Source: Xanthomonas sp. NCPPB 1128 (GTDB taxonomy: Bacteria; Pseudomonadota; Gammaproteobacteria; Xanthomonadales; Xanthomonadaceae). Taken from it: DNA of 64,000 nucleotides. Below are positions 33,611 through 53,203 of the stretch, piece by piece; position 1 is the first letter of the stretch, and every line of letters starts with the position of its first letter. The translations under genes and the position numbers were made by a program. The DNA lies in assembly GCF_001043115.1 (NCBI RefSeq), contig NZ_LFME01000027.1:1-64000 (forward strand), in the 5' to 3' direction. The notes under the pieces were generated by a model. The model was not told the origin of the DNA. It worked only from the letters and a program-made list of their open reading frames with translations, and made no database searches.

Positions 33611-34357
33611 ATGAAAATCCTCGTCGCCTACAAGCGCGTGGTGGACTACAACGTCCGCATCCAGGTCAAGCCGGACGGCTCCGGCGTGGTCACCGAGGGC
33701 GTCAAGCTCTCCGCCAACCCGTTCGACGAAATCGCCCTGGAAGAAGCGCTGCGCCTGCGCGATGCCGGTATCGCCAGCGAGGTGGTGGTCGCCACCATCG
33801 CCCCGGCCGACGCCGCCGCCGCCCTGCGCAACGGCCTGGCGATGGGCGCCAACCGCGCCATCCACGTGGTCGCCGACGCGGCGATCCAGCCGCTGACCGC
33901 CGCGCGCACCCTGCTCAAGCTGGTCGAGCAGGAGCAGCCGGACCTGGTGATCCTGGGCAAGCAGGCGATCGACGACGACGCCAACCAGACCGGGCAGATG
34001 CTGGCCACGCTGTGGGGCCGGCCGCAGGCGACCTTCGCCGGCAAGCTGGTGGTGGCCGACGGCAAGGCCACGGTGACCCGCGAGGTCGACGCCGGCCTGG
34101 AAACCCTGGAAGTGGACCTGCCGGCAGTGGTCACCACCGACCTGCGCCTGAACGAGCCGCGCTTCATCAAGCTGCCGGACATCATGAAGGCCAAGAGCAA
34201 GCCGCTGCAGACGCTGGCGTTCGCCGATCTGGGCGTGGAGGCCAACGACAGCCTCACCACCACCCACTACGCCCCGCCGGCCAAGCGCAGCCGCGGCGTG
34301 ATGGTCAAGGATGCCGCCGAACTGGTGGCCGCACTGAAGAACAAGGGGTTGCTGTAA
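33611..34357 (+). CDS. etfB: Electron transfer flavoprotein beta subunit
   Basis: Small subunit of ETF, 248 residues, which binds AMP and helps carry electrons from acyl-CoA dehydrogenases to ETF-QO (21809-23452). The ETF-beta signature lies at VEANDSLTTTHYAPPAKRSR. A TAGAAT at 33538-33543 is a weak candidate -10 box. It overlaps etfA by one base (TAATG). Confidence 0.95.
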   Translation: MKILVAYKRVVDYNVRIQVKPDGSGVVTEGVKLSANPFDEIALEEALRLRDAGIASEVVVATIAPADAAAALRNGLAMGANRAIHVVADAAIQPLTAARTLLKLVEQEQPDLVILGKQAIDDDANQTGQMLATLWGRPQATFAGKLVVADGKATVTREVDAGLETLEVDLPAVVTTDLRLNEPRFIKLPDIMKAKSKPLQTLAFADLGVEANDSLTTTHYAPPAKRSRGVMVKDAAELVAALKNKGLL

Positions 34358-35298
34358 TGGCCAAGATCCTCGTCATCGCCGAACATCTCAACGGGCAGCT
34401 CAACGCCGCCACCGCCAAGTGCGTCAGCGCCGCGCAGGCGCTGTCGGCCGAGGCCATCGACATCGTGGTGCTGGCGTCCGATCCGGCCGCGGTGGCAGCC
34501 CAGGCCGCGCAGATCGCGGGCGTCGCCCGCGTCCTCACCGTCGCCAATCCTGCCAACGAACACGCCATCGCGCAGGTGCTGGGCCCGCAGATCGCTGCTC
34601 TGGCGGCGGGCTACACCCACGTGTTCGGCCCCTCCACCACCTTCGGCAAGGACCTGATGCCGGTGGTGGCCGCCCTGCTCGGCGTCAACCAGATCTCCGA
34701 CCTGATGGCGGTGGACGGCGAGTACGCGTTCAAGCGCCCGATCTACGCCGGCAACGCCATCATCAGCGTGCAGGCGCCGGCCGACCAGATCGTGGTCGCC
34801 ACCGTGCGCAGCGCCTCCTGGCCGGAAGCGGCGCAAGGCGGCAGCGCGGCGGTTGAAGCGGCCAGCGTGGACGCGTCGCTGCCGAGCCACACCCGCTTCG
34901 TCGGCCTGGCCGCCGGCAAGTCCGACCGTCCCGACCTGCAGAGCGCCAAGCGCGTGGTCTCCGGCGGCCGCGGCGTCGGCTCGGCGGAGAACTTCCAGAT
35001 CGTCTACCAGCTCGCCGACAAGCTCGGTGCGGCGGTCGGCGCCTCGCGCGCAGCGGTCGACGCCGGCTACGTGCCCAACGAACTGCAGGTAGGCCAGACC
35101 GGCAAGATCATCGCGCCGGAGCTGTACGTGGCGATCGGCATTTCCGGCGCCATCCAGCATCTGACCGGCATCAAGGACGCCGGCACTATCGTCGCGATCA
35201 ACAAGGACCCGGAATCGCCGATCTTCGAGATCGCTGACATCGGCCTGGTCGGCGACCTGTTCACGGTGCTGCCGGAGCTGGAAAAGGCGCTGGGCTGA
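34357..35298 (+). CDS. etfA: Electron transfer flavoprotein alpha subunit
   Basis: Large FAD-binding subunit, 313 residues. The C-terminal FAD domain has [14 protein letters not shown] and the signature [16 protein letters not shown] with [13 protein letters not shown]. In Xanthomonas etfA marks one border of the variable LPS island, and here the island begins 20 bp after its stop. Confidence 0.95.
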
Positions 35299-35318: not shown

Positions 35319-36296
35319 ATGATGCCGCACGGCGCCGATGGCGTGCCCGCGCCGCGCCACCGTGCGGATCATCTGGCGTTGTTCGTCGTGCTGTTGTGCG
35401 GCGGCTACCTGGCCGCCCTGTGGTGGATCGACCGCGGCAACGGCACGTTCGCCCGGCTCGGCGCGATCTGGCCGTTGCTGGCGCTGGCGGTGCTGCCGGT
35501 CTCGGCCAGTTACCTGTGCCGCTTCTGGCGCTGGCGCTGGTTGCTGCAGCGACAGGGCCATACGGTGCCGTTCGGTCTCGGATGGACCGCCTACCTGGCC
35601 GGCTTCGCATTGACCGCCACCCCCGGCAAGGCCGGGGAGTTGCTGCGCATCCGCTATTTCGCGCGCATGGGCGTGCCGGCGGGGCGCACGCTGGCGGTGT
35701 TCGTGTTCGAGCGCGCCTCCGACCTGCTGGTGATCCTGGCGCTGTCGCTGCTGGCCGCACCGGTCTTCCCCACCCTGGGCACGCTCGCCGCAGTGGTGCT
35801 GGGCTTCGTCGCCCTGCTGTTCGGCGCCGCCGCCTGGCCGGCTTTGCTGGCGTGGCTGGAGAGCGTGGGCCGGCGTCTGCCCGGCCGCTGGCTGCGGGGG
35901 GCGGCGCAGTTCGCCGTGTTCGCCGCCATGGAGCTGCGTGCCTGCCTCGGCACCGCGCAGATGGTGCGCAGCCTGATCGCGGGCGCGGGCGCCTGGGGCC
36001 TGACCTCGGCGGTCTTCGTCGGCTTGTGCCACGGCCTGGGCCTGCATCTGGACCCGCTGGTCGCGTTCGGCATCTACCCGCTGGCGATGCTGATCGGCGC
36101 GCTGTCCTTCGTGCCCGGCGGGGTCGGCACCACTGAACTGGCGATCGTGCTGATGCTGGACCGGCTGGGCGTCGCCACCGCCGATGCGATCGCGGTCGCG
36201 GTGGCCGCACGGCTGGTGACGCTCTGGTATGCGGTCGCCGTGGGCGCCCTGGCAATGGGCACGACCGAATTCCTGCAGCGGCGCCAAGCCGGCTGA
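35319..36296 (+). CDS. Flippase-like membrane protein (LPG synthase TM-region/UPF0104 family)
   Basis: Integral membrane protein of 325 residues with about eight helices and the conserved segment [20 protein letters not shown], plus [12 protein letters not shown] near the end. Relatives include AglD and the flippase-like region of lysylphosphatidylglycerol synthases, many linked to polyprenyl-linked sugar pathways. A role in moving or using a lipid-linked sugar is inferred from its place before the arabinose-type genes. It may be read from the etf promoter. Two adjacent ATGs (35319, 35322) could serve as start. Confidence 0.72.
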
Positions 36297-36357: not shown

Positions 36358-37806
36358 ATGTCCCTTCCCCCCAGCTCTCCCGCCGACCGCCCGGCTGTCT
36401 CAGGGCGCGCGCTCTGCGTGGATCTGGACGGAACCCTGCTGAATTCGGACATCCTCTACGAGTCCCTGCTGGCACTGCTGGCCCGCAATCCGCTGTACGT
36501 GTTCATGCTGCCGCTGTGGCTCCTGCGCGGCAAGGCCGCGCTGAAGCGCGAACTGGCCGCGCGGGTCACGCTCCCGGCCGAGACGCTGCCCTACAACGAA
36601 CACGTCCTGGAGCTGCTGCGCACCACGCCGCAGCGCCCGCGCGTGCTGTGCACCGCCTCCGACCAATTGCTGGTGGCGCCGATCGCCGCGCACCTGGGCC
36701 TGTTCGAAGAGGTCATCGCCAGTGACGGGCAACGCAATCTGTCCGGCCGCAACAAGGCCGATGTGCTGGTGCAGCGGTTCGGCGAAGGCAATTTCGACTA
36801 TGCCGGCAATGGCCGCGTGGACCTGCACGTGTGGGACAAGGCCGGTGGCGCCTGGGTGGTCAACAACGGCAACGGCTTGCGTGCGGCCGCCGCACAGCGC
36901 ACCACCGTGCATGGGCACTGGCCGGCGCCGCCGCGCGCCCGCGCCTGGCTCAAGGCGCTGCGCCTGCACCAATGGCTGAAGAACCTGCTGGTGTTCGTGC
37001 CGCTGCTGACCTCGCACCGTTTCCTGGAGGGCGAATCGGTGCTGCAGTCGGTGATCGCCATGGTGGCGTTCGGGCTGTGCGCCTCCGGCGTCTACGTCCT
37101 CAACGACCTGCTCGACCTCACCCCCGACCGCCAGCATCCGCGCAAGCGCAAGCGGCCGTTCGCCGCCGGCCGGCTGCCGCTGCTGCAGGGCCTGTTCGCC
37201 GCGCCCGCCCTGACCGTGGCCGGACTGGCCCTATCGCTGGCCTGCAACCTGCAGTTCACCCTGGTGCTGCTGGCCTACTACGTGATGACCCTGGCGTACT
37301 CGCTGCGGCTCAAGCGCATCGTGATGATCGACGTGGTGCTGCTGGCCGCGCTGTACACCGTGCGCATCATCGGCGGCGCGGTGGCCATCGACCTGGAACT
37401 GTCGTTCTGGCTGCTGGCGTTCTCGATGTTCATCTTCCTCTCGCTGGCGCTGCTCAAGCGCTATACCGAACTGCACGCGATGCTCGGCAGCGGCAAGACC
37501 AAGGCCAGCGGGCGGGCCTATTCGGTGGAAGACCTGGTGCTGCTGCAGTCGATGGGCGCGGCGGCCGGCTACATCGCGGTCATGGTCATGGCGCTGTACA
37601 TCAACAGCCCGGAAAGCGTGCAGTTGTATCGGCATCCGAAGCTGCTGTGGCTGATCTGTCCGGTACTGCTGTACTGGGTCAGCCGGGTCTGGATCGTGGC
37701 GCACCGCGGCGACATGCACGACGACCCCATCGTGTTCGCCGCCACCGACCGGGTCAGCCAGGTGGTCGTGGTGCTGTGCGGACTGTTCGCGCTGAGCGCC
37801 ATCTGA
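36358..37806 (+). CDS. HAD phosphatase-UbiA prenyltransferase fusion (DPPR synthase-like)
   Basis: Fusion protein of 482 residues. Residues 18 to about 185 are a HAD-type phosphatase with the nucleophile motif DLDGTLLNSD (D22, D24). From about 195 onward is a UbiA membrane prenyltransferase of the decaprenyl-phosphate phosphoribosyltransferase group: motif one NDLLDLTPDRQHPRKRKRP (about 250-268) and motif two around YSLRLKR, with eight or nine helices. In mycobacteria Rv3806c joins phosphoribose to decaprenyl phosphate and a separate phosphatase removes the 5-phosphate; the fusion could do both. The dprE1-like gene overlaps its stop by one base. Confidence 0.82.
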   Translation: MSLPPSSPADRPAVSGRALCVDLDGTLLNSDILYESLLALLARNPLYVFMLPLWLLRGKAALKRELAARVTLPAETLPYNEHVLELLRTTPQRPRVLCTASDQLLVAPIAAHLGLFEEVIASDGQRNLSGRNKADVLVQRFGEGNFDYAGNGRVDLHVWDKAGGAWVVNNGNGLRAAAAQRTTVHGHWPAPPRARAWLKALRLHQWLKNLLVFVPLLTSHRFLEGESVLQSVIAMVAFGLCASGVYVLNDLLDLTPDRQHPRKRKRPFAAGRLPLLQGLFAAPALTVAGLALSLACNLQFTLVLLAYYVMTLAYSLRLKRIVMIDVVLLAALYTVRIIGGAVAIDLELSFWLLAFSMFIFLSLALLKRYTELHAMLGSGKTKASGRAYSVEDLVLLQSMGAAAGYIAVMVMALYINSPESVQLYRHPKLLWLICPVLLYWVSRVWIVAHRGDMHDDPIVFAATDRVSQVVVVLCGLFALSAI

Positions 37807-39113
37807 TGGCCGATGCCGGGCAGTCCTGGGGACGCTACCCGCACGCGACGCAGACGCTGCTGCCGATCGCCGACCGGGCGGCCACCCTGCCGGCCTTCGC
37901 CGGCAACGCGCTGCCACGTGGAAACGGCCGCAGTTACGGCGACAGCTGCCTCAATCCGGACGGCACCCTGCTGTGCGCGCGCGGTCTGGACCACTTCATC
38001 GGCTTCGACCCCGCGTCAGGCCGGCTGCGCTGCGAGGCGGGAGTCACGCTCGCCGAGATCATCGATCTGGTCCTGCCGCAGGGCTGGTTCCTGCCGGTGA
38101 CGCCGGGCACCCGCTACGTCACCGTGGCCGGCGCCATCGCCAACGACGTGCACGGCAAGAACCATCACCGCACCGGCAATTTCGGCCACCACGTGCTCGC
38201 CTTCGAGCTGCTGCGCAGCGACGGCAGCCGTCGCCTGTGCACGCCGGACGCCGATGCCGACGGCTGGTTCGCGGCGACGGTCGGCGGACTCGGCCTGACC
38301 GGGCTGATCACCTGGGCGGAGATTCAGTTGCGCCGCGTGCCGAGCCCGGTGCTGGAGACGGAGAACATCCGCTTCGGCTCGCTCGACGAGTTCTTCGCGC
38401 TGTCCACCGCCTCCGCCGACAGCCACGAGTACAGCGTCGCCTGGATCGACTGCCTGGCCAGCGGCCGCGCCCGCGGCCGCGGCCATTTCACCCGCGCCGA
38501 TCATTGCGCCGGCCTGCCCGATGAGCGCCCGGCCTCGCCCGGCAAAGGCCTGGCGATGCCGTTGACGCCGCCGGTCTCGCTGGTCAACACGCTGTCGCTG
38601 CGCCCATTCAACGCCCTGTACTACTGGCGCCAGCCCGCGCGCAGCAAGCGCCGGCTGAGCCACCTGCTGCCGTTCTTCTATCCGCTGGACGGCATCCGCC
38701 ACTGGAACCGCATGTACGGCCCGCGCGGCTTCCTGCAGTACCAGTGCGTGCTGCCGCCGGCCACCGCACGCGACGGCGTGGACGCGCTGCTGGCGGAAAT
38801 CGCCCGTAGCGGCAGCGGCTCCTTCCTGGCCGTGCTGAAGGAGTTCGGCGACCTCCCCGGGCGCGGCATGCTGTCCTTCCCGCGCCCGGGTACCACGCTG
38901 GCGCTGGACTTCCCCAACGATGGCGCCGACGTGCTTCGCCTGCTGGAGCGGCTGGACCGCATCGTCGACGCCGCCGACGGCGCTCTGTACCCTGCCAAGG
39001 ACGCGCGCATGTCTGCCGCCTCGTTCCAGCGTGCCTATGCCCGCTGGCAGGACTTCAGCCGCTATCTCGATCCCCGCTTTTCTTCCGGCTTCTGGCGCCG
39101 GGTCACGGAGTGA
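37806..39113 (+). CDS. dprE1: DprE1-like polyprenylphosphoryl-ribose 2-oxidase
   Basis: FAD-dependent oxidase of 435 residues. The FAD motif is PRGNGRSYGDSCLN (about 38-50). The DprE1 hallmark NDVHGKNHH is at 113-121 and the C-terminal YPAKDAR holds the catalytic-type lysine (about K398). It would oxidise the 2-hydroxyl of polyprenylphosphoryl-ribose as the first half of the epimerisation to arabinose. The residue aligned with mycobacterial Cys387 (in GWNICVDFP) is Ala (about 366, GTTLALDFP). Translation is coupled to the HAD-UbiA gene (TGATG). Confidence 0.88.
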   Translation: MADAGQSWGRYPHATQTLLPIADRAATLPAFAGNALPRGNGRSYGDSCLNPDGTLLCARGLDHFIGFDPASGRLRCEAGVTLAEIIDLVLPQGWFLPVTPGTRYVTVAGAIANDVHGKNHHRTGNFGHHVLAFELLRSDGSRRLCTPDADADGWFAATVGGLGLTGLITWAEIQLRRVPSPVLETENIRFGSLDEFFALSTASADSHEYSVAWIDCLASGRARGRGHFTRADHCAGLPDERPASPGKGLAMPLTPPVSLVNTLSLRPFNALYYWRQPARSKRRLSHLLPFFYPLDGIRHWNRMYGPRGFLQYQCVLPPATARDGVDALLAEIARSGSGSFLAVLKEFGDLPGRGMLSFPRPGTTLALDFPNDGADVLRLLERLDRIVDAADGALYPAKDARMSAASFQRAYARWQDFSRYLDPRFSSGFWRRVTE

Positions 39114-39115
39114 AC

Positions 39116-39844
39116 ATGCAACGCGTCCTCATCATCGGCGCCACCTCGGCGATCGCCGAGGCCACTGCCCGGCACTACGCCGCGCGCGGCGCGGCCCTCC
39201 ATCTGCTCGGCCGCCAGGCCGCGCGCCTGGGCGCCATCGCCTCGGATCTGTCGGCGCGCGGCGGCAAGGCCAGTTGCGGCGTGCTCGACGTCAACGACAG
39301 CGCCGGCCATGCGGCGGCCTTCGATGCCGCATGGGCCGCGCTGGGCGGCGTCGACGTGGTGCTGATCGCCCACGGCACGCTGCCCGACCAGGCCGCGTGC
39401 GATGCCTCGGTCGACCTGTCGCTGCGCGAGTTCGCCACCAACGGCACCTCGACGATCGCCTTGTGCGCCGCGCTGGCGCCGCGCCTGCGCGCGGGCGCGA
39501 CGCTGGCGGTGATCTCGTCGGTGGCCGGCGACCGCGGCCGCGCCAGCAACTACCTTTACGGCAGCGCCAAGGCCGCGGTCAGCGCCTACCTGAGCGGCCT
39601 CGGCCAGCGCCTGCGCCCGGACGGCATCAATGTGCTCACGATCAAGCCGGGCTTCGTCGATACGCCGATGACCGCCGCCTTCAAGAAGGGCGCGCTGTGG
39701 GCCAAGCCCGACCAGATCGCCAAGGGCATCCTGCGCGCCGTCGACGGCCGCCGCGCGGTCGCCTACCTGCCCGGTTTCTGGTGGGCGATCATGTTCGTCA
39801 TCAAATCCATTCCCGAATTCGTTTTCCGCAGGATCAAGCTCTGA
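39116..39844 (+). CDS. dprE2: DprE2-like short-chain reductase
   Basis: Short-chain dehydrogenase of 242 residues expected to reduce the 2-keto intermediate made by DprE1, giving polyprenylphosphoryl-arabinose. NAD(P) motif IIGATSAIAEA is at the N-terminus; the catalytic Ser and YxxxK are in VISSVAGDRGRASNYLYGSAK. The C-terminal IPEFVFRRIKL matches the IPRSIFRKL end of mycobacterial DprE2. The ATG at 39116 has GGAG 5 bases upstream; a GTG at 39110 overlapping the dprE1 stop would add two residues. Confidence 0.87.
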   Translation: MQRVLIIGATSAIAEATARHYAARGAALHLLGRQAARLGAIASDLSARGGKASCGVLDVNDSAGHAAAFDAAWAALGGVDVVLIAHGTLPDQAACDASVDLSLREFATNGTSTIALCAALAPRLRAGATLAVISSVAGDRGRASNYLYGSAKAAVSAYLSGLGQRLRPDGINVLTIKPGFVDTPMTAAFKKGALWAKPDQIAKGILRAVDGRRAVAYLPGFWWAIMFVIKSIPEFVFRRIKL

Positions 39845-39845
39845 C

Positions 39846-40790
39846 ATGACCGACAAACACGCCAAGATCGTCATCACCGGCGCCGCGGGACTGGTCGGGC
39901 AGAACCTGATCGTCGAACTGGAGCAGCAGGGCTACACCCAGTTGGTGGCGATCGACAAGCATGCGCACAACCTGCAGATCCTGCGCGAGCTGCACCCGGC
40001 GGTACGCGTGGTGGAGGCGGATCTGGCCGAGCCCGGCGGCTGGGCCCGCGAATTCGAGGGCGCAGCCTGCGTTGCCCAGTTGCACGCGCAGATCACCGGC
40101 AAGACCACCGACCTGTTCACCCGCAACAACCTGACCGCGACCGCGCACGTGCTCGACGCCTGCCGCGCGGCAAACGTGCCTTACCTGGTGCACATCAGTT
40201 CCTCGGTGGTGAACTCGGTGGCCAAGGACGACTACACCAACACCAAGCGCGCCCAGGAAGAAATGGTGGTCGCCAGCGGCCTGCGCCACTGCGTGCTGCG
40301 TCCGACCCTGATGTTCGGCTGGTTCGATCCCAAGCACCTGGGCTGGCTGTCGCGCTTCATGGCCAAGACGCCGGTGTTCCCGATCCCGGGCGACGGCCGC
40401 TTCATGCGGCAGCCGCTGTACGAGCGCGACTTCTGCCGTTGCATCGCCAAGTGCATCGAACGCGAACCCGAGGGCGATGTCTACGACATCGTCGGCGATA
40501 CGCGCGTGGACTACGTCGACATCATCAAGACGATCAAGCGGGTCAAGAAGCTGCACACCCTGATCGTGCATATCCCGATCGGCTTCTTCGCCTTCCTGCT
40601 GCGCGTGTACTCGCTCTTCAGTTCCAAGCCGCCGTTCACCGCCGACCAGTTGAATGCGCTGAGCGCCGGCGACGACTTCAAGGGCGTGGATACCGAAGCG
40701 GTGTTCGGCGTGCGCCAGACGCCGTTCGAAGACGCGATCCGCGAAAGCTATACCGACCCGCGCTACAGCCACATCGTGCTCAAGCGCTGA
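39846..40790 (+). CDS. NAD-dependent epimerase/dehydratase (extended SDR)
   Basis: Protein of 314 residues with the motif ITGAAGLVGQNL at the N-terminus, a serine region SSSVVNSVAK and YxxxK as YTNTK (about 136-140). A hydrophobic stretch near residues 240-255 (VHIPIGFFAFLLRVY) suggests membrane contact, which would suit a lipid-linked sugar substrate. The exact reaction cannot be read. It lies 1 bp after dprE2. Confidence 0.75.
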   Translation: MTDKHAKIVITGAAGLVGQNLIVELEQQGYTQLVAIDKHAHNLQILRELHPAVRVVEADLAEPGGWAREFEGAACVAQLHAQITGKTTDLFTRNNLTATAHVLDACRAANVPYLVHISSSVVNSVAKDDYTNTKRAQEEMVVASGLRHCVLRPTLMFGWFDPKHLGWLSRFMAKTPVFPIPGDGRFMRQPLYERDFCRCIAKCIEREPEGDVYDIVGDTRVDYVDIIKTIKRVKKLHTLIVHIPIGFFAFLLRVYSLFSSKPPFTADQLNALSAGDDFKGVDTEAVFGVRQTPFEDAIRESYTDPRYSHIVLKR

Positions 40791-40812
40791 ACCGTCATAC
40801 GAGACCAGAACC

Positions 40813-42108
40813 ATGAGTACATTCGCGATCGTCGGCAGCGGCCCCATGGGCCTGATGGCTGCCATGGAACTGCTGAAGACAGGCCATCAGGTCGACGTCT
40901 ACGAACGCGACGACCGCATCGGCGGCATGTCCGCGGACTTCGATTTCGACGGCCTGCGCATCGAGCGCTACTACCACTTCATCTGCAAGACCGATTTTCC
41001 GCTGTTCAAGCTGCTCGAGGACCTTAAGCTGTCCGACCGCCTGCACTGGACGGACACCAAGATGGGGTACTACTACCAGGGCAAGCTGCACAAGTGGGGA
41101 ACGCCGTTCGCACTGCTCGGTTTCCCGCACCTGGGGTTGGTCGACAAGATCCGCTACGCCCTGCACGTCATGCACACCAAGGGCATCAGCGACTGGACTG
41201 CGCTGGACAAGGAAAACGCGCGCGACTGGATCACCCGCTGGATCGGCCCCAAGGCCTACAAGGTGATGTGGGAGAAGGCCTTCGCGCTGAAGTTCTTCGA
41301 GTACCAGAACGACCTGTCCGCGTCGTGGATCGGCACCCGCATCAAGCGCGTGGCACTGTCGCGGCGCAACCTGTTCAACGAAAGCATGGGCTATCTGGAA
41401 GGCGGTTCGGCCGTGCTGCTGGAGCGTATGGCTGCGGAAGTGACGCGCCTGGGCGGACGCATCCTGCTGTCGCAACCGATCGAAGAGGTCGCCTCGGTCG
41501 ATGGCAAGGTCACCGGCATCCGCACCCGCGACGGCCATCATGCCTACGACGGCGTGGTGTCGACGGCACCGATCCAGTACGTGCCCGGCATGGTGCCGGG
41601 CCTGCCCAGGACCTTCGCCGACCAGGTCGCCGCGATCGAGAACATCCCGGTCGCCTGCGTGATCCTGAAGCTGTCCAAGCCGGTCAGCGAGAACTTCTGG
41701 ATGAACATCAGCGACGAGCGGATCTCCATCCCCGGCCTGATCGAATACAGCAACCTCAACCCCGGCAAGGGCCCGGGCGAGCACATCGTGTATGCGCCCT
41801 ACTACATGCCCAAGACCCATCCGAAATGGCAGTGGAGCAACCAGCAGCTGATCGACGAAGTCATCAGCTACTTGCCGATGATCAATCCGGACTTCAAGCC
41901 GGAATGGATCCGCGCCACACATTGCCATCGCTACGAGTACGCGCAGACCATCTGCCCGCCGGGGTTCCAGGACATGCTGCCGCCGATGAAGACGCCGCTG
42001 GCGGGCTTCTACATGGCCGATACGGCCTACTACTACCCGGAAGATCGCTCGATCAACGAAAGCATCGACGTCGGCAGGCGCCTGGCCGAGGTCGCGACGA
42101 CCGCATGA
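40813..42108 (+). CDS. FAD/NAD(P)-dependent oxidoreductase, protoporphyrinogen-oxidase-like
   Basis: Flavoprotein of 431 residues with the N-terminal dinucleotide motif IVGSGPMGLMAAMELLKTGH, the second FAD contact ERDDRIGGMSADF and a C-terminal FAD segment GFYMADTAYYYPEDRSINES. This is the amine-oxidase-like superfamily (COG1232), which also contains sugar mutases and polyprenyl- or carotenoid-acting enzymes. Members near glycan clusters are common but uncharacterised. The gene overlaps the gtrA gene by ATGA, supporting a joint role in lipid-linked sugar chemistry. Confidence 0.72.
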   Translation: MSTFAIVGSGPMGLMAAMELLKTGHQVDVYERDDRIGGMSADFDFDGLRIERYYHFICKTDFPLFKLLEDLKLSDRLHWTDTKMGYYYQGKLHKWGTPFALLGFPHLGLVDKIRYALHVMHTKGISDWTALDKENARDWITRWIGPKAYKVMWEKAFALKFFEYQNDLSASWIGTRIKRVALSRRNLFNESMGYLEGGSAVLLERMAAEVTRLGGRILLSQPIEEVASVDGKVTGIRTRDGHHAYDGVVSTAPIQYVPGMVPGLPRTFADQVAAIENIPVACVILKLSKPVSENFWMNISDERISIPGLIEYSNLNPGKGPGEHIVYAPYYMPKTHPKWQWSNQQLIDEVISYLPMINPDFKPEWIRATHCHRYEYAQTICPPGFQDMLPPMKTPLAGFYMADTAYYYPEDRSINESIDVGRRLAEVATTA

Positions 42109-42497
42109 TCAGCAAGCGGTTCTTCTTCTTCCTGCTGTCCGGCGGCATCGCTGCCGCCGCCAACTTCGGCTCGCGCATTCTCTTCAGCCATTGGCTGCCG
42201 TATGCCGCCGCAATCGTGCTGGCCTATCTGGTCGGCATGACCACGGCCTTCATCCTGATGCGCAAGCTGGCGTTCAAGGAAACCTCCAACACCCAGCGCA
42301 CGCAGATCGCCTGGTTCGTCGTGGTCAACGCCGTCGCCCTGCTGCAGACCCTGGCGATCAGCCTGTTGCTGGCGAAGTGGGTGTTCCCCTGGCTCGGCAT
42401 CCGCTATCTGGACGAAACGATCGCCCACGCGATCGGCGTCGCCGTGCCCGTAGTAACCAGCTACCTCGGCCACAAGTACCTGTCCTTCAAGAACTGA
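42105..42497 (+). CDS. GtrA family membrane protein
   Basis: Small four-helix membrane protein of 130 residues with the GtrA pattern: FFFLLSGGIAAAANFGSR at the start, RKLAFK after helix 2 and HKYLSFK at the end. GtrA proteins are proposed flippases or partners for polyprenyl-linked sugars. Mycobacterial Rv3789, next to dprE1-dprE2, belongs here and has been tied to decaprenylphosphoryl-arabinose use. The same genes are together in this cluster. Confidence 0.87.
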   Translation: MISKRFFFFLLSGGIAAAANFGSRILFSHWLPYAAAIVLAYLVGMTTAFILMRKLAFKETSNTQRTQIAWFVVVNAVALLQTLAISLLLAKWVFPWLGIRYLDETIAHAIGVAVPVVTSYLGHKYLSFKN

Positions 42498-42571: not shown

Positions 42572-44047
42572 ATGACGTTTTCTTCCCAACTTTCCCGGCA
42601 AGGCGTCATGCGTTTCGCAAGGAGATTCCTGGTTCCCTGGCTGGCGCTGACGTTCTTTCTGGGAGCGTTTTACCACTGGTCCGGATTGAACATTCAACCG
42701 TTCAGGGCCGAGTCCGGGCGCTTTATCGCCTGGGCGCACAGTGGTGACCTTTCGGAGTTTCTCGACACCCATATCTATGCGTCGTACAGCGGCCACTACA
42801 CGCCACTGTATTTCGCCGCCGAACTCCTGCAAGCAAGGTGGTTTGGCGCCAGCGAGCAGTTATGGTTCTGGCGGCAGATACTGCTGCTCGGCCTGCTCGG
42901 CACCGCACTGGCGTCTTTGGCACGCACGACGCTGGATGCCCTGGGCACGGACCGCAACGTGTCCCGGATGGCGAGCTATCTGCTCGCCGTCGTATTCTTG
43001 CTGCAGCCGGCGATTGCAGAGATGGTGACCTGGCCGTTCATGGCCGGACAGTTCCTCTGTCTCGCCTGCGCAGCGATGGGCCTGCGTTATCTGATCCGCG
43101 CCAGCGGCCTGGGCGACGAGCACGCCTTACCGTGGGCGATGGCCTGGAGCTACGCCTCGATGCATTTTCTCGGCGTGGGCTTCGTGATCAGCGCCACCAC
43201 CCTGATCACCTGCTGCGTGCTGATGTGGAGTCAGCGGCTTCCGCATCGTCTCTGGCGCATCATCGCGATCTTCACGGTGCTGACGGCCCTGCACGGCGCC
43301 ATGATGACCTATGGTGCGCCCACCCAGGAACTGGCGGTGCCGCTGCAGACATTGGTGAAACGCTTCGGCGCGCTGTACATGGGCCTCGTGCATGGCGGGC
43401 TGCAGTCGTTATGGGCCAGTGGACGCTTCCGCTGGCCGGACGTGGAAGCCTTCCCGGTTGATGCCATCTACGGCCTGGCGCTGCTCGCCGCACTGCTTGC
43501 CTCCGCAATTGCCTTGGCCCAGCGTGCGCGCGCGCAGTCGCGGCCATCACTGATGCTGGCCAGCATCGTGGTCGGCTTCCCAAGCCTCGCACTGGCGCTG
43601 TATAGCGCGCTTCCGGTGCTGCGGACCAAGGGAACCCTGGACCCGCACAGCCTGGACGGCTACCTGTTCGGCACCCGCTATCTGATCTTCGCCACCTTTT
43701 TCGCCTACGTGCCGATCAGTGCGCTCGTCGGCATCGTGGCGCGCAAGCTCGGAAAGCCGATGCTGGTGCCGCTGCTGCTCCTGTCGCTTGGATCGGCGGC
43801 AGGTACGGCGGCCTTCATTCGCGTCATCATTCCGCAGATCTGGCCCTACCTGCTTACTCCCTCGGACGTGCTCTGGGCCAACGTCGTCAAGGAAGCCGAG
43901 GTGCAGCAGCAGACACTGGGCTACGTGAAGGATCGCCCGTTAACGGAACTGGATCGCGAGTTCAATCCGCCCATGCACCTGTATGCGCCGCTCATCGAGC
44001 AGGATCTGGGTTGCACCAAGTGCATCCATTTCAAGAACAATCCCTGA
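42572..44047 (+). CDS. Polytopic GT-C-like membrane protein, candidate glycosyltransferase
   Basis: Membrane protein of 491 residues with about ten helices. After the first helix a periplasmic loop carries an acidic stretch (NIQPFRAESGRFIAWA), as in GT-C enzymes that use polyprenyl-phospho-sugars, and HYTPLYF follows. No close family is recognised. As last gene of the arabinose-type unit it is the best candidate for the transferase. The start at 42572 is the second of several possibilities (42520, 42608). The region is visibly less GC-rich than the flanking core genes. No gene was seen in the 284-bp gap after it. Confidence 0.6.
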   Translation: MTFSSQLSRQGVMRFARRFLVPWLALTFFLGAFYHWSGLNIQPFRAESGRFIAWAHSGDLSEFLDTHIYASYSGHYTPLYFAAELLQARWFGASEQLWFWRQILLLGLLGTALASLARTTLDALGTDRNVSRMASYLLAVVFLLQPAIAEMVTWPFMAGQFLCLACAAMGLRYLIRASGLGDEHALPWAMAWSYASMHFLGVGFVISATTLITCCVLMWSQRLPHRLWRIIAIFTVLTALHGAMMTYGAPTQELAVPLQTLVKRFGALYMGLVHGGLQSLWASGRFRWPDVEAFPVDAIYGLALLAALLASAIALAQRARAQSRPSLMLASIVVGFPSLALALYSALPVLRTKGTLDPHSLDGYLFGTRYLIFATFFAYVPISALVGIVARKLGKPMLVPLLLLSLGSAAGTAAFIRVIIPQIWPYLLTPSDVLWANVVKEAEVQQQTLGYVKDRPLTELDREFNPPMHLYAPLIEQDLGCTKCIHFKNNP

Positions 44048-44331: not shown

Positions 44332-44859
44332 CTAGCGCTGATACAGCATCAGATTAAGCACCTTGCTCTCCGCATTGCCGTTGAGCATCAGCGACTCCTT
44401 GCCCTGCGCCGGATAGATCCAGACGACCAGCTTGTCGTCCCCGGACTCCCGCGCTAGTTCGTAGCGCACCACGCCACCGGTCTGGCGCATGGCAAACTCG
44501 GACTCCAGCGTCACCGCCAGATAATCGTTGTCCCTGGAGCCGGCGAGGTCCGCACGCCCGATCGTGCAGCGCTCATCCTGGCAGAGCTTGAGCGAAATCT
44601 TGCCCTGCGCGGCACCACCGCTGTTGCCGATCTGCACAGCGGCTCGCTTGATCTGCAGAGTGGCCGGAGGCGCAAATGTGCCGGCAAGCACCTGCCGATC
44701 GTTCAACGGGATCGCAGCATTGGAGGAGTCGTCCAACGGAACGCGGACGGAGACGTCACCTGCCGCGAGGTACTTTTCGCATTCGCTGGCAGGATACTGC
44801 CTGCAGCCGGCCAGCACCCACAGGACGGAGGCCATCGCCAGCATGGAACGCACACGCAT
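44332..44859 (-). CDS. Predicted lipoprotein of unknown function
   Basis: Protein of 175 residues with lipobox VLAGC (Cys 19). The mature part is mostly beta-strand-like with cysteine pair CQDERC. No family is recognised. It is last in the minus-strand LPS unit, 23 bp after the membrane protein gene, so a role in the same surface structure is only a guess. Confidence 0.65.
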   Translation of the reverse strand: MRVRSMLAMASVLWVLAGCRQYPASECEKYLAAGDVSVRVPLDDSSNAAIPLNDRQVLAGTFAPPATLQIKRAAVQIGNSGGAAQGKISLKLCQDERCTIGRADLAGSRDNDYLAVTLESEFAMRQTGGVVRYELARESGDDKLVVWIYPAQGKESLMLNGNAESKVLNLMLYQR

Positions 44860-44882: not shown

Positions 44883-46484
44883 TCAGGCCGATGGCAGCAA
44901 GGCGCGTGCCCGCACCCACAACAAGCCAAGATTGAGCAATAGCTGAAGAATCACACAGGCTAGCGCGACCCGATGGTTCATCCGTTCCTGCATGAACTTC
45001 ATCGCGAACACGCACAACACGATACCGATGGCCTGCAGGCCATGGACCGCAGGAATCGCCGGCGCACTGAACACGCCCACCAGCAGTGCACAGGGCAAGA
45101 GCACGAAGGCGAAGAGTTCCTTGGGCCGGCGACTGCCGTAAATCCATGCGCCCGCATACGCCTGGGCAATCAGCAACACGCCCATAGCACCGGTGATGGA
45201 CACCAGTAACTCCTGGAAGAGTTGATTCGGCACCAACGGATAGGTTCCGAGATACATCGGCAGGAATGTCCGGGCCGCGTTGGCGACGCGGATCCAGATC
45301 AGATCTATCAGGCTCGCCGAGCTCAGCAGGTTCTGCGCCACCAGGTCCGACGGAATCTGCAAGTACCACCGCGTCCACAGCCACCAAGGCAGCACGCAGG
45401 CGGCCAGCGCCAGCCCATAGGCAATCACGTTGCGCACGCACTGTGGCTTGAATCCATCGCGCAGCAGGATGTACAGCCCGAAACATCCGGCAAAGACGAT
45501 CGCGTAGGGGTGGGACCAGTACGCCATGCCCGCCAGCACGCCGGCGACGAAGGCAGAACGCCGCGACAGCAAGGTGTAGGCACCGAGGATGAGGAAGAAG
45601 CCGCCCAGGGATTTCGGCCAGGTGAACAGGGTCTGTGCGATGAAGTACGGGCTGCTGACCACAAGCAGCAATCCGGCCAGCACATACGCGCCGCGCAGTC
45701 CGGCGCGCATGAGCAACAATGCCGCACCGAGCAACAGCGTGCTGTTCAACACGATGCCGACAGCCAGAAACTGCCGGAACGCGTCGTCGTCGCCCAGACT
45801 CCCGACGTCCGGCCAATCCTGGCCGACATAGCTGAATCTGGGCAGGGCACGCGCCTGCTTGGCCGGCGGATCCAGGACGGCACGGAACGGCACGTTCACC
45901 AGCGACATCAGAATGGGGCGGTTGGACAGCTCCTGCCCGGGCATGAGCGGCCGCTCGAACGCGAACTGGATGTCCCGCAGCAGGAACTCGCTGGACAAGT
46001 ATGGCAAATAGTTGTCGGCCGGAAACGCTCCCATCATCACTTGCACCTTGACGTGCAGATGGTGGTTCTTGATCACGTACGGCCCATCCGGCAACTCGCC
46101 GGGAAAGCGCACCGGCATCGACACGATCGCCATGCACGACAGCGCCATGCCGATCCACGCGGCGAAGCCAAGGACGGTCAGCCGCCAACGCCCCGCCAGC
46201 AGCTTGCCGAGCACGCCGTGGCGATACCACTGCCAGCAGGAGAGTGCGTACAGCAGCGCGAACCCGATGCAGGCATTGAGCCGGTTGTCGCTGGGAAGCG
46301 AGACGACGAATACGCCAAGCGCACCATGCCCGACGACGCCGACAGCGACGGAATACGCCAGCAGTTCCAGGCCGTGCAGCCGCCGTCCGGCCTCGGTGAG
46401 CGACAGCAATCCCGCCCCCACGCCGAGCAACGACAACGCCACCGCGACGCAAAGCGCCAAGCTTCCCCACAACTCCACTGCCAC
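44883..46484 (-). CDS. Large polytopic membrane protein, GT-C-like
   Basis: Protein of 533 residues with about twelve hydrophobic helices. A long extracytoplasmic loop near residues 125-220 contains NHHLHVKVQVMMGAFPADNY and LPYLSSEF. The layout resembles GT-C glycosyltransferases or O-antigen processing proteins, but no diagnostic motif is certain. It lies between the glycosyltransferase genes and the lipoprotein gene, all read the same way. Confidence 0.6.
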   Translation of the reverse strand: MAVELWGSLALCVAVALSLLGVGAGLLSLTEAGRRLHGLELLAYSVAVGVVGHGALGVFVVSLPSDNRLNACIGFALLYALSCWQWYRHGVLGKLLAGRWRLTVLGFAAWIGMALSCMAIVSMPVRFPGELPDGPYVIKNHHLHVKVQVMMGAFPADNYLPYLSSEFLLRDIQFAFERPLMPGQELSNRPILMSLVNVPFRAVLDPPAKQARALPRFSYVGQDWPDVGSLGDDDAFRQFLAVGIVLNSTLLLGAALLLMRAGLRGAYVLAGLLLVVSSPYFIAQTLFTWPKSLGGFFLILGAYTLLSRRSAFVAGVLAGMAYWSHPYAIVFAGCFGLYILLRDGFKPQCVRNVIAYGLALAACVLPWWLWTRWYLQIPSDLVAQNLLSSASLIDLIWIRVANAARTFLPMYLGTYPLVPNQLFQELLVSITGAMGVLLIAQAYAGAWIYGSRRPKELFAFVLLPCALLVGVFSAPAIPAVHGLQAIGIVLCVFAMKFMQERMNHRVALACVILQLLLNLGLLWVRARALLPSA

Positions 46485-46561: not shown

Positions 46562-47536
46562 TCAACGACCTGCCTGCCACTCCTGCACATGCTGCAGCAT
46601 CGTCTGCGCGCGGTGCAGATAGGTATGTTCGCGCAACGTACGCTGCTGGGCCGCCGTGGCGATCGCCAGGCAGCGATTGCGATCGCCGGCCATGGCCTCG
46701 ACGCACTCGCGGAACTCGCGCACGGAGTTGTAGAGCAGGACCTCGGTGCCGGGCGTGTAGTAATCGACGATCTCCAGGCTTTCGACGAAGAACAGCTGGG
46801 TCGTACCGGCCATCGCCGCCTCGAAGGTGCGCGGGCCCGGCGTGGAGGGATCCAGCTTGAAGCGGTCGTTGGCGTAGTGATAGTCGCGCCCCATGTTCAG
46901 CGTGATCCACGCGCGCGCATACCGATCCGAGAGCTCGTTGTTGGGCAGGCGCTGATTGCGGCAGAACGGCAACTCCGACTCCGGCCAGCCGTCGCCCAGC
47001 ACGACCGCAGCGTGCTCCTGCAACGGCTTTGCCAGATCGCGCAGCAACTTGATCCGGTTGCCGAAGGCGACGCCGCAGAAAAAGATGTTGACGTCCTTCG
47101 TCGCCGAGATCGGACGCCAGTGCGCCCGTTCGCTCGCTGCCAGTGGCAGATGGAACGCGCGCGGATGGTCGTAATGCTCGGCGCACCACTTGTCGTTGCT
47201 GAAGACCAGATCCGCAACGTCCCTGATCTTGTAACTGAAATCGAATTCGTAGGGATCGTCGTGCAGCCAGAACACCAGCGTTGCGCCGGTCTGCGCGCAG
47301 TAGCGCTTGATGCCGCTGTAGTCGGCATCGTCGGGCATGCAAGAACCGAAGCACACCACCAGCTCCGGCCTGGCCGACCAGGCCTTGGTCGCTGCGTGCT
47401 CGAGCGGCACGTTCACCACCAACTCGATCCCACGCAACTGCCAGAAGCCTTCGGCCACGTAGCTGCGCAGCACCACGTTGCGATTCTGATTGTCCGGCGA
47501 AGCGCCGCAGACCAGGACGCGAGAGGGCATGCTCAT
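46562..47536 (-). CDS. CgeB-type glycosyltransferase
   Basis: Cytosolic glycosyltransferase-like protein of 324 residues. N-terminal DUF3880-like half: LVFWLHDDPYEFDFSYKI. C-terminal Glyco_trans_1_2 half: DPSTPGPRTFEAAMAGTTQL, the nucleotide-sugar site region, and later REFRECVEAM. Sugar and acceptor are unknown. The start at 47536 overlaps the upstream stop (ATGA). It is similar in design to the first half of the upstream gene, suggesting duplication. Confidence 0.78.
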   Translation of the reverse strand: MSMPSRVLVCGASPDNQNRNVVLRSYVAEGFWQLRGIELVVNVPLEHAATKAWSARPELVVCFGSCMPDDADYSGIKRYCAQTGATLVFWLHDDPYEFDFSYKIRDVADLVFSNDKWCAEHYDHPRAFHLPLAASERAHWRPISATKDVNIFFCGVAFGNRIKLLRDLAKPLQEHAAVVLGDGWPESELPFCRNQRLPNNELSDRYARAWITLNMGRDYHYANDRFKLDPSTPGPRTFEAAMAGTTQLFFVESLEIVDYYTPGTEVLLYNSVREFRECVEAMAGDRNRCLAIATAAQQRTLREHTYLHRAQTMLQHVQEWQAGR

Positions 47537-50049
47537 TTCGCAGCTCCAGAGAGGCGGCGCACGACTTCGGAGGCGAGCCTGCGTGCCGTGTTCATCGCGC
47601 CGTTCTTCCTGAAATACCGGTATAGCCGGCGCACTCGTCCCGGCTCTGGCGTCGGCACCAACTGCGCAACCTCGTTCACCACGACGGTCGCACCTTGCGG
47701 CTGGATGGTCCACTCTCGATCCATCAACAACACGCCGATCTCCTTGAGCGTATGCCCACGCGGCGGGGTCCCTGCGTCACGCGCGCGCCACGGCGGTAAC
47801 TGCGCCAGCAAGCCGTGGTAGAGCCCGCTGAGCCACTGCATGTGTTCCTGGTGACCGACACCGAGCCCGGCATGCACGTTCGCGCGCACGCGCTCGACCT
47901 CTGCGCGATCGACGATCAGCCGCCGGACCAGCGAGACGATGGCGCCAGACTCCCCCATTGGCAGCTTGAATCCGTTGAGGCCATCGGCCACCCGCTCGCC
48001 GAGTGCGCCGGTGTCCGATACGATCGGCACCAGCCCCGCGCTCCACGCCTCGGACAGGCTGATGCAGTAGGTCTCGGGCCAGATGGAGAAATGCATCGAC
48101 ATCGAGAAGCCGGCCAGTATCTGCGGCAGGCTGCCTGGGCGGTAGGCGCCATGCACACGCAGGTTCGGGATCTTCAGCACGTTGAAGATGTCGTTGTACG
48201 GCTCGGAAAGCCGCCCGATCACCGTGAATTCGACATTGTCCGTACGCAACTGGTTGAAGGCATGGACCAGTTGGTCGCCGCCCTTGTTCTTGGTGAAGTT
48301 GCCGACGATGGCGATCCGCAGCGGCGCATCCGGCATTTCCGGCGGGTGCTGCGGCACCTTCGCACGCTCGTCGCCAAGCGGCATCGGCACGCCCATGACC
48401 CGAAGCTTCTCGCTTCCTTCCAACAACGGATACATGGTCCTGAACAGCGATGCCACGCCCTCGGTGTTGGCATGGAGCGCGTCCATCGCCAACAACATGC
48501 GGCCGAAGAAGGCCCTGCGCTTGGCCTGGCTTCCCGCTCCAAGGCCATGCGCCGCGTTCAAGCACACATCGCAGGTCTCCGCCGGCAGCGCGGGGATGTT
48601 GCAGTACACCCCGCGGTAGTCCAGCAGGTTGAAGCGCGAGCAGACGACGTAGTAGTCATGCAGGCTCAACACCGCGGGAATTCCGAGCGCCGACGGAATG
48701 AAGCCGAGAGATGGCACATGGCCGATCAGATGCTGGAAATGCACCAGGTCGATCCGGAACTTCTCCAGCAACCTGGAGAACACCTGCTCGCGTTCGGGGC
48801 AGGACAGCAGCGAGTCGTCGAGCGTCGAAGCGCAGTCGAAGCTCTGGACCACCTGCATCGCCTCGTTGTACACCACGTAGCGCATGCCAACCGGCGTCAC
48901 CGTCCGATCGGGAACGTAGAAGAACAGCTCGAATTCGTCCCCGATCGCCTGGCGCACGGAATCCTGATAGACCTCCACGCCGCCATAAGGCTCCACGCCG
49001 AGTATGTTGTGCGACACCATCATGATGCGCCGGCGCGCCTTGGGCGCCGGCTGCAGCGAAGGCACCGACACCGGCGCCACCGCCAGCGCCTCCAGTTCGG
49101 CGAACAGTGTCTGCACCCGATTGGCGTACAGGTGTTCGGTCATGGCGCGCTGCTGCGCGGCGCGCGCGATCGCCAGACGCTCCTGCGGATAGGCCAGGTA
49201 ATGCTCCAGCTTCTGGATGCACTCCTGCACGCTGGAGAAACCGACGTACTCCTTGCCTTCGGTGAAGAAGTCGTCCACCCGAATTTCGGGGATGGAGGTA
49301 TCCACCAACTGGAAGCCACCGGCCAACGCCACTTCGAAGAAGCGCGGTCCCGGCGTATGTGCGACCGGATCGTTGCCCGAGGAGGAGAACGCACGGTGCA
49401 GGGTCAGCACCGAGCGGCTGCGATTGGCGAACTTGGCGAACTCGGTGTTCGGCGTGCGCCAGTCGTATTCGCTGAGCTCCATGCCGAGCTTGGGCGCGGG
49501 GATGTACGGATTGGCGGGCAACGCCAACTTCAACCGGATATCGGGAATCGCGGCCTGCAGCTTGCCGAGAAACTCCGACCGGTTCGGCCAGGCCGTGCCC
49601 GCGAAGAACAGATCGTAGAAGTAGTGCCCGTCGTCTGCCTCGGGCAGTGCATGGAAATGAAAATGCTCATCCGCGGCGAAGGGCAGATGCCGTCCCTTGG
49701 CGCCGTATCCAGCGACGCTACCGGCATCGTTCGTGAACACCAGATCGAACAGATCCGAATTCTTCACGTTGATGCTGCGCTCGTAAGGATCCTCGGTGAC
49801 CCAGAGCACAGCGCGACCGCACACATCCACCAAGCGCTCGACCACCGAGCGATCCAGCTCCTCGCCGTCGAAGGCGAGCAGCAGGTTGCATCCATGCCGC
49901 TGCGCCTGCGCGATGGCCGATCCGTAGTCGGCCTTGATCATGCATTCGACACCGCCGTGTTGCTCGAGCGCCCTGGCGATGGCCAAGCAAATGTAATGGT
50001 TGGGATTACTCCGCTTGGTGTCGAGGAGCAGGACGCGCCATGGCTTCAT
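47533..50049 (-). CDS. Two-module glycosyltransferase: CgeB-type plus GT4
   Basis: Protein of 838 residues carrying two catalytic modules. Residues 1 to about 330 are CgeB-like (VLWVTEDPYERSINVKNSDL, then HTPGPRFFEVALAGGFQL). Residues about 340-760 are a GT4 enzyme with an acceptor-side SHNILGVEPYGGVEVYQDS and donor-side SLSEAWSAGLVPIVSDTGA. A CxxC in AETCDVCLNAAHG could bind metal. Two linkages of the O-antigen may thus be made by one protein. The start is the ATG at 50049; a TTG one codon earlier is possible. Confidence 0.8.
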   Translation of the reverse strand: MKPWRVLLLDTKRSNPNHYICLAIARALEQHGGVECMIKADYGSAIAQAQRHGCNLLLAFDGEELDRSVVERLVDVCGRAVLWVTEDPYERSINVKNSDLFDLVFTNDAGSVAGYGAKGRHLPFAADEHFHFHALPEADDGHYFYDLFFAGTAWPNRSEFLGKLQAAIPDIRLKLALPANPYIPAPKLGMELSEYDWRTPNTEFAKFANRSRSVLTLHRAFSSSGNDPVAHTPGPRFFEVALAGGFQLVDTSIPEIRVDDFFTEGKEYVGFSSVQECIQKLEHYLAYPQERLAIARAAQQRAMTEHLYANRVQTLFAELEALAVAPVSVPSLQPAPKARRRIMMVSHNILGVEPYGGVEVYQDSVRQAIGDEFELFFYVPDRTVTPVGMRYVVYNEAMQVVQSFDCASTLDDSLLSCPEREQVFSRLLEKFRIDLVHFQHLIGHVPSLGFIPSALGIPAVLSLHDYYVVCSRFNLLDYRGVYCNIPALPAETCDVCLNAAHGLGAGSQAKRRAFFGRMLLAMDALHANTEGVASLFRTMYPLLEGSEKLRVMGVPMPLGDERAKVPQHPPEMPDAPLRIAIVGNFTKNKGGDQLVHAFNQLRTDNVEFTVIGRLSEPYNDIFNVLKIPNLRVHGAYRPGSLPQILAGFSMSMHFSIWPETYCISLSEAWSAGLVPIVSDTGALGERVADGLNGFKLPMGESGAIVSLVRRLIVDRAEVERVRANVHAGLGVGHQEHMQWLSGLYHGLLAQLPPWRARDAGTPPRGHTLKEIGVLLMDREWTIQPQGATVVVNEVAQLVPTPEPGRVRRLYRYFRKNGAMNTARRLASEVVRRLSGAAK

Positions 50050-50105
50050 CAAAAGTTCCGGGTACGAAGATCCGTGCGCGCGGATCGATTACCACAATAT
50101 TAACA

Positions 50106-53163: not shown

Positions 53164-53203
53164 GATGGACCTTTGAAATCGAAGCGAATGCTTCAGCGAG
53201 CGA

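Follow-up and report, generated by a model that had tools for sequence, protein, structure and literature searches.

Lipid-linked pentofuranoses are known to be added to O-antigens by three-component systems (Kelly et al. 2024, PMC11127046). According to that account, candidate systems for glycans containing D-arabinofuranose (Araf) carry homologs of DprE1 and DprE2, the mycobacterial and Glc/Gal systems use exporters of the SMR type, and Xanthomonas strains exhibit more elaborate systems, with more than one epimerase or GT-C, the significance of which is left open. Here, we describe a locus of this kind in Xanthomonas sp. NCPPB 1128, in the first 64,000 nucleotides of contig NZ_LFME01000027.1 (the whole stretch analyzed, hereafter the window), where six genes at positions 36358–42497 encode a HAD-UbiA fusion, a DprE1-like FAD oxidase, a DprE2-like short-chain dehydrogenase/reductase (SDR), an SDR epimerase (Epim), a flavoenzyme (FADox), and a GtrA-type protein. 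These six genes probably form a single pathway whose product, a polyprenyl-phosphate-linked pentose, is made in the cytoplasm and destined for a surface glycan, with a step by FADox and Epim following that of DprE1/E2. The pathway is real and widely conserved; it belongs to a known kind and carries a two-enzyme extension that is unexplained. Its first half is of the published type (PMC11127046); what is new here is a nested ladder of gene content, in which the Epim and FADox pair is tied to DprE1.

The six genes belong to a run of forward-strand genes lying between etfBA and an O-antigen region containing Wzm and Wzt (Table 1), with gaps of −1, −4, 1, 22, −4, and 74 bases from HAD-UbiA through GtrA to the open reading frame (ORF) at 42572. 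An original prediction, made from the letters of the window, had placed HAD-UbiA, DprE1-like, DprE2-like, and GtrA genes together on one strand; the frames, the forward orientation, and the overlaps or tiny gaps hold, but the four genes are not contiguous, as Epim and FADox, omitted from that gene list although members of the same run, intervene between DprE2 and GtrA. The HAD-UbiA protein shares 97% identity with its counterpart in Xanthomonas sp. F10 and 93% with the one in X. albilineans, which places the host in that group of Xanthomonas. In Pseudoxanthomonas composti GSS15, both Epim and FADox show 98% identity to the window proteins.

A scan with HAD-UbiA returned 350 relatives, the best 80 of which (the named loci) come mostly from the Lysobacteraceae and Rhodanobacteraceae and are not mutually independent. 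Gene content was counted in the 69 named loci with at least 11 kb of sequence from the HAD-UbiA start, with matches taken on the same strand as HAD-UbiA at 45% coverage and, for Epim and FADox, at least 45% identity. All six genes were present in 56 of these loci, HAD-UbiA, DprE1, and DprE2 without the rest in eight, HAD-UbiA and DprE1 without the rest in one, and HAD-UbiA without any of the other five in four (L086, L092, L095, and L125), with no other combination seen. Neither Epim nor FADox occurred without its partner or without DprE1/E2 in the 69 loci. Among the 11 shorter loci, which lie outside this count, three carry all five partners of HAD-UbiA and eight carry DprE1, three of the latter with DprE2 and none with the remaining genes. 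For the four loci with HAD-UbiA alone, ribofuranose addition is predicted, in line with the alpha-ribofuranose noted in Stenotrophomonas lipopolysaccharide (LPS; PMC11127046).

Two peculiarities were noted within this collection. One locus (L084, JAHREJ010000003.1), titled Bacillus subtilis, holds the cassette with xanthomonad etf neighbors and a HAD-UbiA of 75% identity, and probably stems from a mislabelled or contaminated assembly. Dyella jiangningensis SBZ 3-12 (CP007444.1) displays two copies of the region (L130 and L131) with the same gene positions in two chromosomal places, which reflects either an extensive duplication or a misassembly.

Beyond the named loci, we analyzed 369 genomes sampled evenly from the class to which the window belongs (limits of E ≤ 1e-50 for DprE1 and FADox and E ≤ 1e-30 for Epim), in which DprE1 was found in 69 genomes, Epim in 13, and FADox in 16. 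The 13 Epim genomes coincide with those holding a strong FADox (E ≤ 2e-138), and DprE1 is present in every one of them; this nesting has a hypergeometric p of about 1e-10 with kinship ignored, and 10 families are represented among the 13 genomes. The remaining three FADox matches show 27–30% identity and come from genomes in which neither Epim nor DprE1 was found at these limits. A phylum sample of 155 genomes gave strong Epim in five genomes and FADox in the same five, all inside the 26 with DprE1, two of the five (the window's own genome and G610) being also part of the class sample. A weak sixth Epim relative (G681:C43:14792-15676, L189), 28% identical and with two in-frame TAG codons, was noted in a genome with DprE1 and without FADox.

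Physical linkage was also common. For the 12 strong FADox regions in other genomes of the class sample, the same stretch holds Epim in 11, DprE1 in nine, and HAD-UbiA in seven; in L160 the gene order is altered and the content unchanged, and the three regions without a nearby DprE1 belong to genomes that carry it elsewhere (G277, G528, and G589, where the genes lie apart). FADox was found at E ≤ 1e-40 in eight of 72,556 plasmid records, seven at 44–47% identity and one (Embleya) at 29%. The four records that were opened, from Burkholderia stagnalis, Rhizobium tumorigenes, Agrobacterium salinitolerans (a conjugative plasmid), and a Rhodobacteraceae strain, all display the order HAD-UbiA, DprE1, DprE2, Epim, FADox, GtrA, and the other three of the seven have a DprE1 match no more than 3 kb from FADox. 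Betaproteobacteria seem to lie outside the class sample, given that a Cupriavidus 16S sequence matched 58 of 158 genomes of the class, the best full-length one being 86% identical and in the window's own family. The linkage extends across alpha-, beta-, and gammaproteobacteria, which favors a single pathway. On the basis of co-occurrence, it is well supported that Epim and FADox act with, and probably after, DprE1/E2 in a joint, DprE-dependent step. Since both are nested within the DprE1 set, polyprenyl-phosphate-D-arabinofuranose is probably an intermediate and not the end product.

The first four reactions can be assigned with more detail. Orthologs were extracted from the 80 named loci (70% coverage, ATG start, no stop, and length within 60 aa), which left 67 sequences for HAD-UbiA, 70 for DprE1, 69 for DprE2, and 53 for Epim. 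HAD-UbiA scored 681 bits against NF006088 (cut-off 351), and Pfam places the HAD domain at residues 22–131 and UbiA at 229–448, a fusion with HAD first, as in PRP-PPPRS proteins of the Citrobacter youngae ORF15 type. In the UbiA part, which matches 8j8j, a solved decaprenyl-phosphate phosphoribosyltransferase (E 2.5e-27), the UbiA motif (NDLLDLTPDRQ...) begins at residue 249. ORF15 is described as the assay-proven maker of farnesyl-phosphate-ribofuranose from phosphoribosyl pyrophosphate (PRPP); mutation of D18 in its HAD part led mainly to the 5-phosphate product, with some farnesyl-phosphate-ribofuranose still made, and in its UbiA part N247, D248, D251, and D255 were required in vitro, with the active-site residues R366 and E369 dispensable (PMC11127046). 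In the alignment of the window protein with its 67 orthologs, D22 occurs in 67 of 68 rows (one gap) and N249, D250, D253, D257, R368, and E371 each in all 68, the UbiA positions standing at a constant offset of 2 from those of ORF15. The assignment of HAD-UbiA as a putative polyprenyl-phosphate 5-phosphoribosyltransferase and 5′-phosphatase is well supported.

The DprE1-like protein matches the solved DprE1 structure 4aut (E 5.5e-72) and model NF053785 (E 1.7e-108), its 363.7 bits lying below the curated equivalog cut-off of 500. The hallmark NDVHGKNHH begins at residue 113, and H116, K118, and K398 (aligned to 4aut) are present in 71 of 71 rows; we take the former two to be the His and Lys of the DprE1 FAD site and the latter its C-terminal Lys. 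We did note an alanine (A366) in all 71 rows at a position held in the solved mycobacterial structure by the Cys of NxCxDFP, the covalent site of benzothiazinones. The DprE2-like protein, which ends in IPEFVFRRI, scored above the cut-off of NF005489, and its match to NF053786 (E 1.3e-48, 165.9 bits) falls below the equivalog cut-off of 250; Y150 and K154 (YxxxK) are present in 70 of 70 rows. That these two proteins would carry out the same reactions as DprE1 and DprE2 is well supported by homology, and is not claimed from membership of the equivalog models. The original prediction had read the three motifs correctly, and its pairing of a synthase/phosphatase, leading from PRPP to polyprenyl-phosphate-ribofuranose, with DprE1 and DprE2 in an LPS island is supported by the families and the conserved catalytic positions; the profile comparison envisaged with it places HAD-UbiA above its cut-off, and the other two, for all their strong E-values, under the equivalog cut-offs.

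Epim is a well-conserved SDR protein (mean column identity of 79% over 24 sequences), in which G12, G15, and G18 (TGAAGLVG) and the Y130xxxK134 pair occur in 54 of 54 rows, giving both the TGxxGxxG and YxxxK motifs. PDB matches to its profile were confined to general SDR enzymes (best E 3e-11). For FADox, Foldseek and VIA-align comparisons of an AlphaFold2 model (pLDDT 86.9) pointed to the amine oxidase, protoporphyrinogen oxidase, phytoene desaturase, and UDP-galactopyranose mutase (UGM) fold without picking a single one. A profile search against the PDB listed phytoene desaturase first and UGM 23rd of 27, and a single-sequence search listed UGM third of 22 PDB sequences. The GLF family of UGM (PF03275) is absent among the seven Pfam matches of FADox at E ≤ 0.001, so that the likeness to UGM is at the superfamily level.

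From homology and conserved residues, we propose that HAD-UbiA would load a D-ribose unit from PRPP onto polyprenyl phosphate, that its HAD domain would remove the 5-phosphate, that the DprE1-like FAD oxidase would oxidize C2 of the polyprenyl-phosphate-ribofuranose, and that the DprE2-like SDR would reduce the product to polyprenyl-phosphate-D-arabinofuranose. This compound would then be converted further by FADox and Epim, the joint step suggested by their co-occurrence. L-xylose is the C4 epimer of D-arabinose, and UGM-like flavoenzymes and GalE-like SDRs catalyze ring changes and C4 inversions, respectively, on nucleotide sugars. As D-arabinofuranose needs one ring change and one C4 inversion to become L-xylopyranose, we propose a UGM-like and GalE-like pair, in which FADox may act as a furanose/pyranose mutase, giving polyprenyl-phosphate-D-arabinopyranose, and Epim as a C4 epimerase, giving polyprenyl-phosphate-L-xylopyranose. 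GtrA would flip this product, and a strain-specific neighboring membrane transferase might add the sugar to the exported O-polysaccharide. This mutase and epimerase chemistry, which draws on analogy, is the likeliest for the fifth step, yet it is tentative and could well prove mistaken. With no greater confidence, we suggest that the cassette may be a route to the L-xylose of bacterial surface glycans, a full D-to-L pentose conversion that would take place on the lipid carrier and involve no nucleotide sugar.

L-xylose was proposed as the product because partial L-xylose side chains have been reported in Xanthomonas and Ralstonia O-antigens. The O-polysaccharide of R. solanacearum is described with non-stoichiometric beta-L-xylopyranose on rhamnose (PMC10450222), and a title in the reference list of PMC5786101 refers to a 'partially L-xylosylated L-rhamnan' of X. 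campestris pv. begoniae. Non-stoichiometric side chains fit late periplasmic addition, for which side chains of about 50% are given in C. youngae (PMC11127046). Several points weigh against the L-xylose proposal. The gene row is present in X. citri 306 (PMC2238763), yet the O-antigen of an X. citri strain is reviewed as a rhamnose polymer (PMC8042644); X. translucens has xylose, its configuration not being given in that review, and is absent among the best 80 of 350 HAD-UbiA loci; the xylose of Xylella is reported as D (PMC5786101); and neither fold nor sequence of FADox singles out a mutase. We found no description of an L-xylose donor pathway in the literature searched (Xanthomonas, Stenotrophomonas, and polyprenyl as subjects, with few subscription journals), which is weak evidence of absence.

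Other chemistries were weighed for the fifth step; they overlap with the general statement of the pathway, and our estimates for them do not sum to one. Given that Epim and FADox occur as a pair, they may form a second oxidase/reductase couple, acting on the furanose via a 3-keto intermediate and yielding a furanose epimerized at C3, C4, or both. This would mirror the logic of DprE1 and DprE2 (FAD oxidase plus NAD(P) reductase), but we know of no oxidation of sugar hydroxyls within the FADox superfamily, and in R. solanacearum the L-xylose of the side chain is a pyranose (PMC10450222), leaving this option rather doubtful. It is unlikely that polyprenyl-phosphate-D-arabinofuranose is itself the end product, with Epim and FADox serving another, merely adjacent activity. 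DprE1/E2 homologs do go with Araf-containing systems (PMC11127046), and the eight named loci with HAD-UbiA, DprE1, and DprE2 only indicate that this half of the pathway stands alone elsewhere; however, DprE1 accompanied every close relative of Epim and FADox found in the 69 loci and in both genome samples (369 and 155), even where the gene order is altered or the genes lie apart, and their linkage in three proteobacterial classes argues for one pathway. The original prediction had this bacterium making a polyprenyl-phospho-pentofuranose; the enzymes for such a compound are in place, and it is as the end product that arabinofuranose is put in question by the nested pair.

The best profile and fold match of FADox is phytoene desaturase, an isoprenoid enzyme, and FADox might accordingly desaturate, isomerize, or reduce the polyprenyl chain, with Epim alone acting on the sugar. 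We consider this quite unlikely, as there is no reason for a polyprenyl-chain step to be restricted to genomes with Epim and DprE1; the three distant FADox relatives (27–30%) in genomes without Epim and DprE1 are uninformative on substrate. Least probable among these options, if by little, is that Epim diversifies the pentofuranose as a C3 epimerase (giving xylo- or lyxofuranose), with FADox a helper or unrelated. Its model is the SDR epimerase ORF13 from C. youngae O2, which has the same TGxxGxxG and YxxxK motifs and converts ribofuranose to xylofuranose (PMC11127046); the cluster in which ORF13 acts, however, has neither a flavoenzyme nor DprE1/E2, whereas every close Epim relative observed came with both. 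A stand-alone C3 epimerase was rejected, as Epim was not seen without FADox in the close set (the 28% relative in G681 aside). A chance cluster was rejected on the recurrence of the gene set (56 of 69 named loci) and order (the four opened plasmid records), and a phage origin was rejected, with only one of 50,697 phage records holding a HAD-UbiA relative (31% identity over half its length).

The polytopic protein that follows GtrA is recognized in few named loci, and its AlphaFold2 model, built from three sequences, was unusable (pLDDT 47). The second polytopic protein has a relative in one of 72,556 plasmid records (E ≤ 1e-20; 45–46% identity), at L175 10369–11958 on the reverse strand, beside the six-gene cassette of a conjugative Agrobacterium plasmid, and is a candidate transferase for the cassette sugar. 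Across the named loci bearing FADox, 57 of 59 have at least one ORF of at least 250 aa with at least six hydrophobic segments; 10 of these loci also list HAD-UbiA itself (lost in extraction) or upstream ORFs in this count, and all 10 also contain such an ORF downstream. The variation of polytopic proteins from locus to locus is as expected of acceptor-specific GT-C enzymes, and they could also be other membrane proteins. No MATE family match was found by Pfam among the 19 island proteins scanned, in which GtrA (PF04138) stands within the cassette. The left flank agrees with the etfA/metB borders described for xanthomonad LPS loci (PMC2238763), and the LPG_synthase_TM protein directly precedes HAD-UbiA in many Xanthomonas and Stenotrophomonas loci. 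Within the O-antigen region, we also noted a 438-aa frame (51269–52585, reverse strand) with a C-terminal hexapeptide acetyltransferase-like domain (about residues 290–435).

Table 1. Genes of the six-gene run and its surroundings in the window, with the basis of each assignment.
Feature	Position	Strand	Basis
etfB-etfA, conserved left edge of xanthomonad LPS islands	33611–35298	+	ORFs; 84–98% identical proteins adjoin HAD-UbiA in Xanthomonas loci
LPG_synthase_TM / flippase-like membrane protein	35319–36296	+	PF03706 1.3e-38; extracted from 25 of 80 named loci
HAD-UbiA	36358–37806	+	Open frame, 482 aa
DprE1-like	37806–39113	+	Open frame, 435 aa
DprE2-like	39110–39844	+	Open frame, 244 aa
Epim, extended-SDR epimerase, partner of FADox	39846–40790	+	PF01370 2.6e-21
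FADox, flavoenzyme of amine oxidase / phytoene desaturase / UDP-galactopyranose mutase fold	40813–42108	+	NF005560 549 bits
GtrA-type small membrane protein, presumed flippase of lipid-linked sugar	42105–42497	+	130 aa; PF04138 4.4e-17
Polytopic membrane protein, candidate GT-C transferase	42572–44047	+	8 hydrophobic segments; no Pfam family over cut-off
Small lipoprotein-like ORF between two membrane proteins	44332–44859	−	Sequence (lipobox-like LAGC); no Pfam family
Polytopic membrane protein, second candidate GT-C transferase	44883–46484	−	11 hydrophobic segments; no Pfam family over cut-off, no credible PDB relative
Glycosyltransferases of O-antigen region	46562–50052	−	PF13524, PF00534
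Wzt-like ATPase frame (51826–53280) and Wzm-like ABC-2 permease (53204–54022)	51826–54022	−	ABC-transporter O-antigen export

The conserved two-enzyme module extends the recently characterized synthesis of lipid-linked pentofuranoses and touches the elaborate Xanthomonas systems flagged in PMC11127046 ('functional significance ... warrants investigation'). The ladder, from ribofuranose to Araf to a third sugar, provides a rule for predicting side-chain pentoses from alpha-, beta-, and gammaproteobacterial genomes. Should the module yield L-xylose, this would account for a sugar in the side chains of plant-pathogen O-antigens, one for which no donor route was found in the literature searched, and FADox would be, to our knowledge, the first mutase acting on a polyprenyl-phosphate sugar.

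UGM and the GalE-type C4 epimerases, with which FADox and Epim have superfamily folds in common, provide a working analogy for the pair; unlike UGM, FADox has no GLF match, and its lipid-linked mutase activity is a proposal. For X. oryzae pv. oryzae BXO8 and X. citri 306, a 2007 description of the LPS loci lists the same genes, named as a prenyltransferase, oxidoreductase, dehydrogenase, epimerase, phytoene-desaturase-like protein, and GtrA (PMC2238763). There they are given as sequence without function, and BXO8 has an inserted methyltransferase and a rearranged ORF. Pilin arabinosylation in Pseudomonas aeruginosa PA7/Pa5196 likewise employs a PPPRS for Araf in a Gram-negative bacterium; in contrast to the window, that system targets pilin and has a separate phosphatase, and its description in PMC11127046 mentions no Epim or FADox.

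In the mycobacterial pathway (Rv3806c, Rv3807c, DprE1, DprE2, and Rv3789), the first four reactions are expected to be alike, with homologous UbiA, DprE1, and DprE2 proteins and a small exporter. The window differs in its phosphatase, a fused HAD domain and not a relative of Rv3807c, which leaves the step-by-step match to the Rv proteins drawn by the original prediction incomplete, and also in its two added enzymes, in DprE1 and DprE2 proteins under the equivalog cut-offs, and in the Ala for Cys in DprE1. The mycobacteria-like oddity suggested by that prediction is instead a pathway of the Gram-negative three-component pentofuranose kind described in PMC11127046. Set against C. youngae O1/O2, the window has GtrA where C. 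youngae has a MATE flippase (ORF14), and four sugar-converting enzymes compared with none or one, Epim and FADox being left unexplained in the account of PMC11127046. Shared between the two are the HAD(PRP)-UbiA fusion with its domain order and catalytic residues, an SDR epimerase as diversifier, and an O-antigen exported by an ABC transporter.

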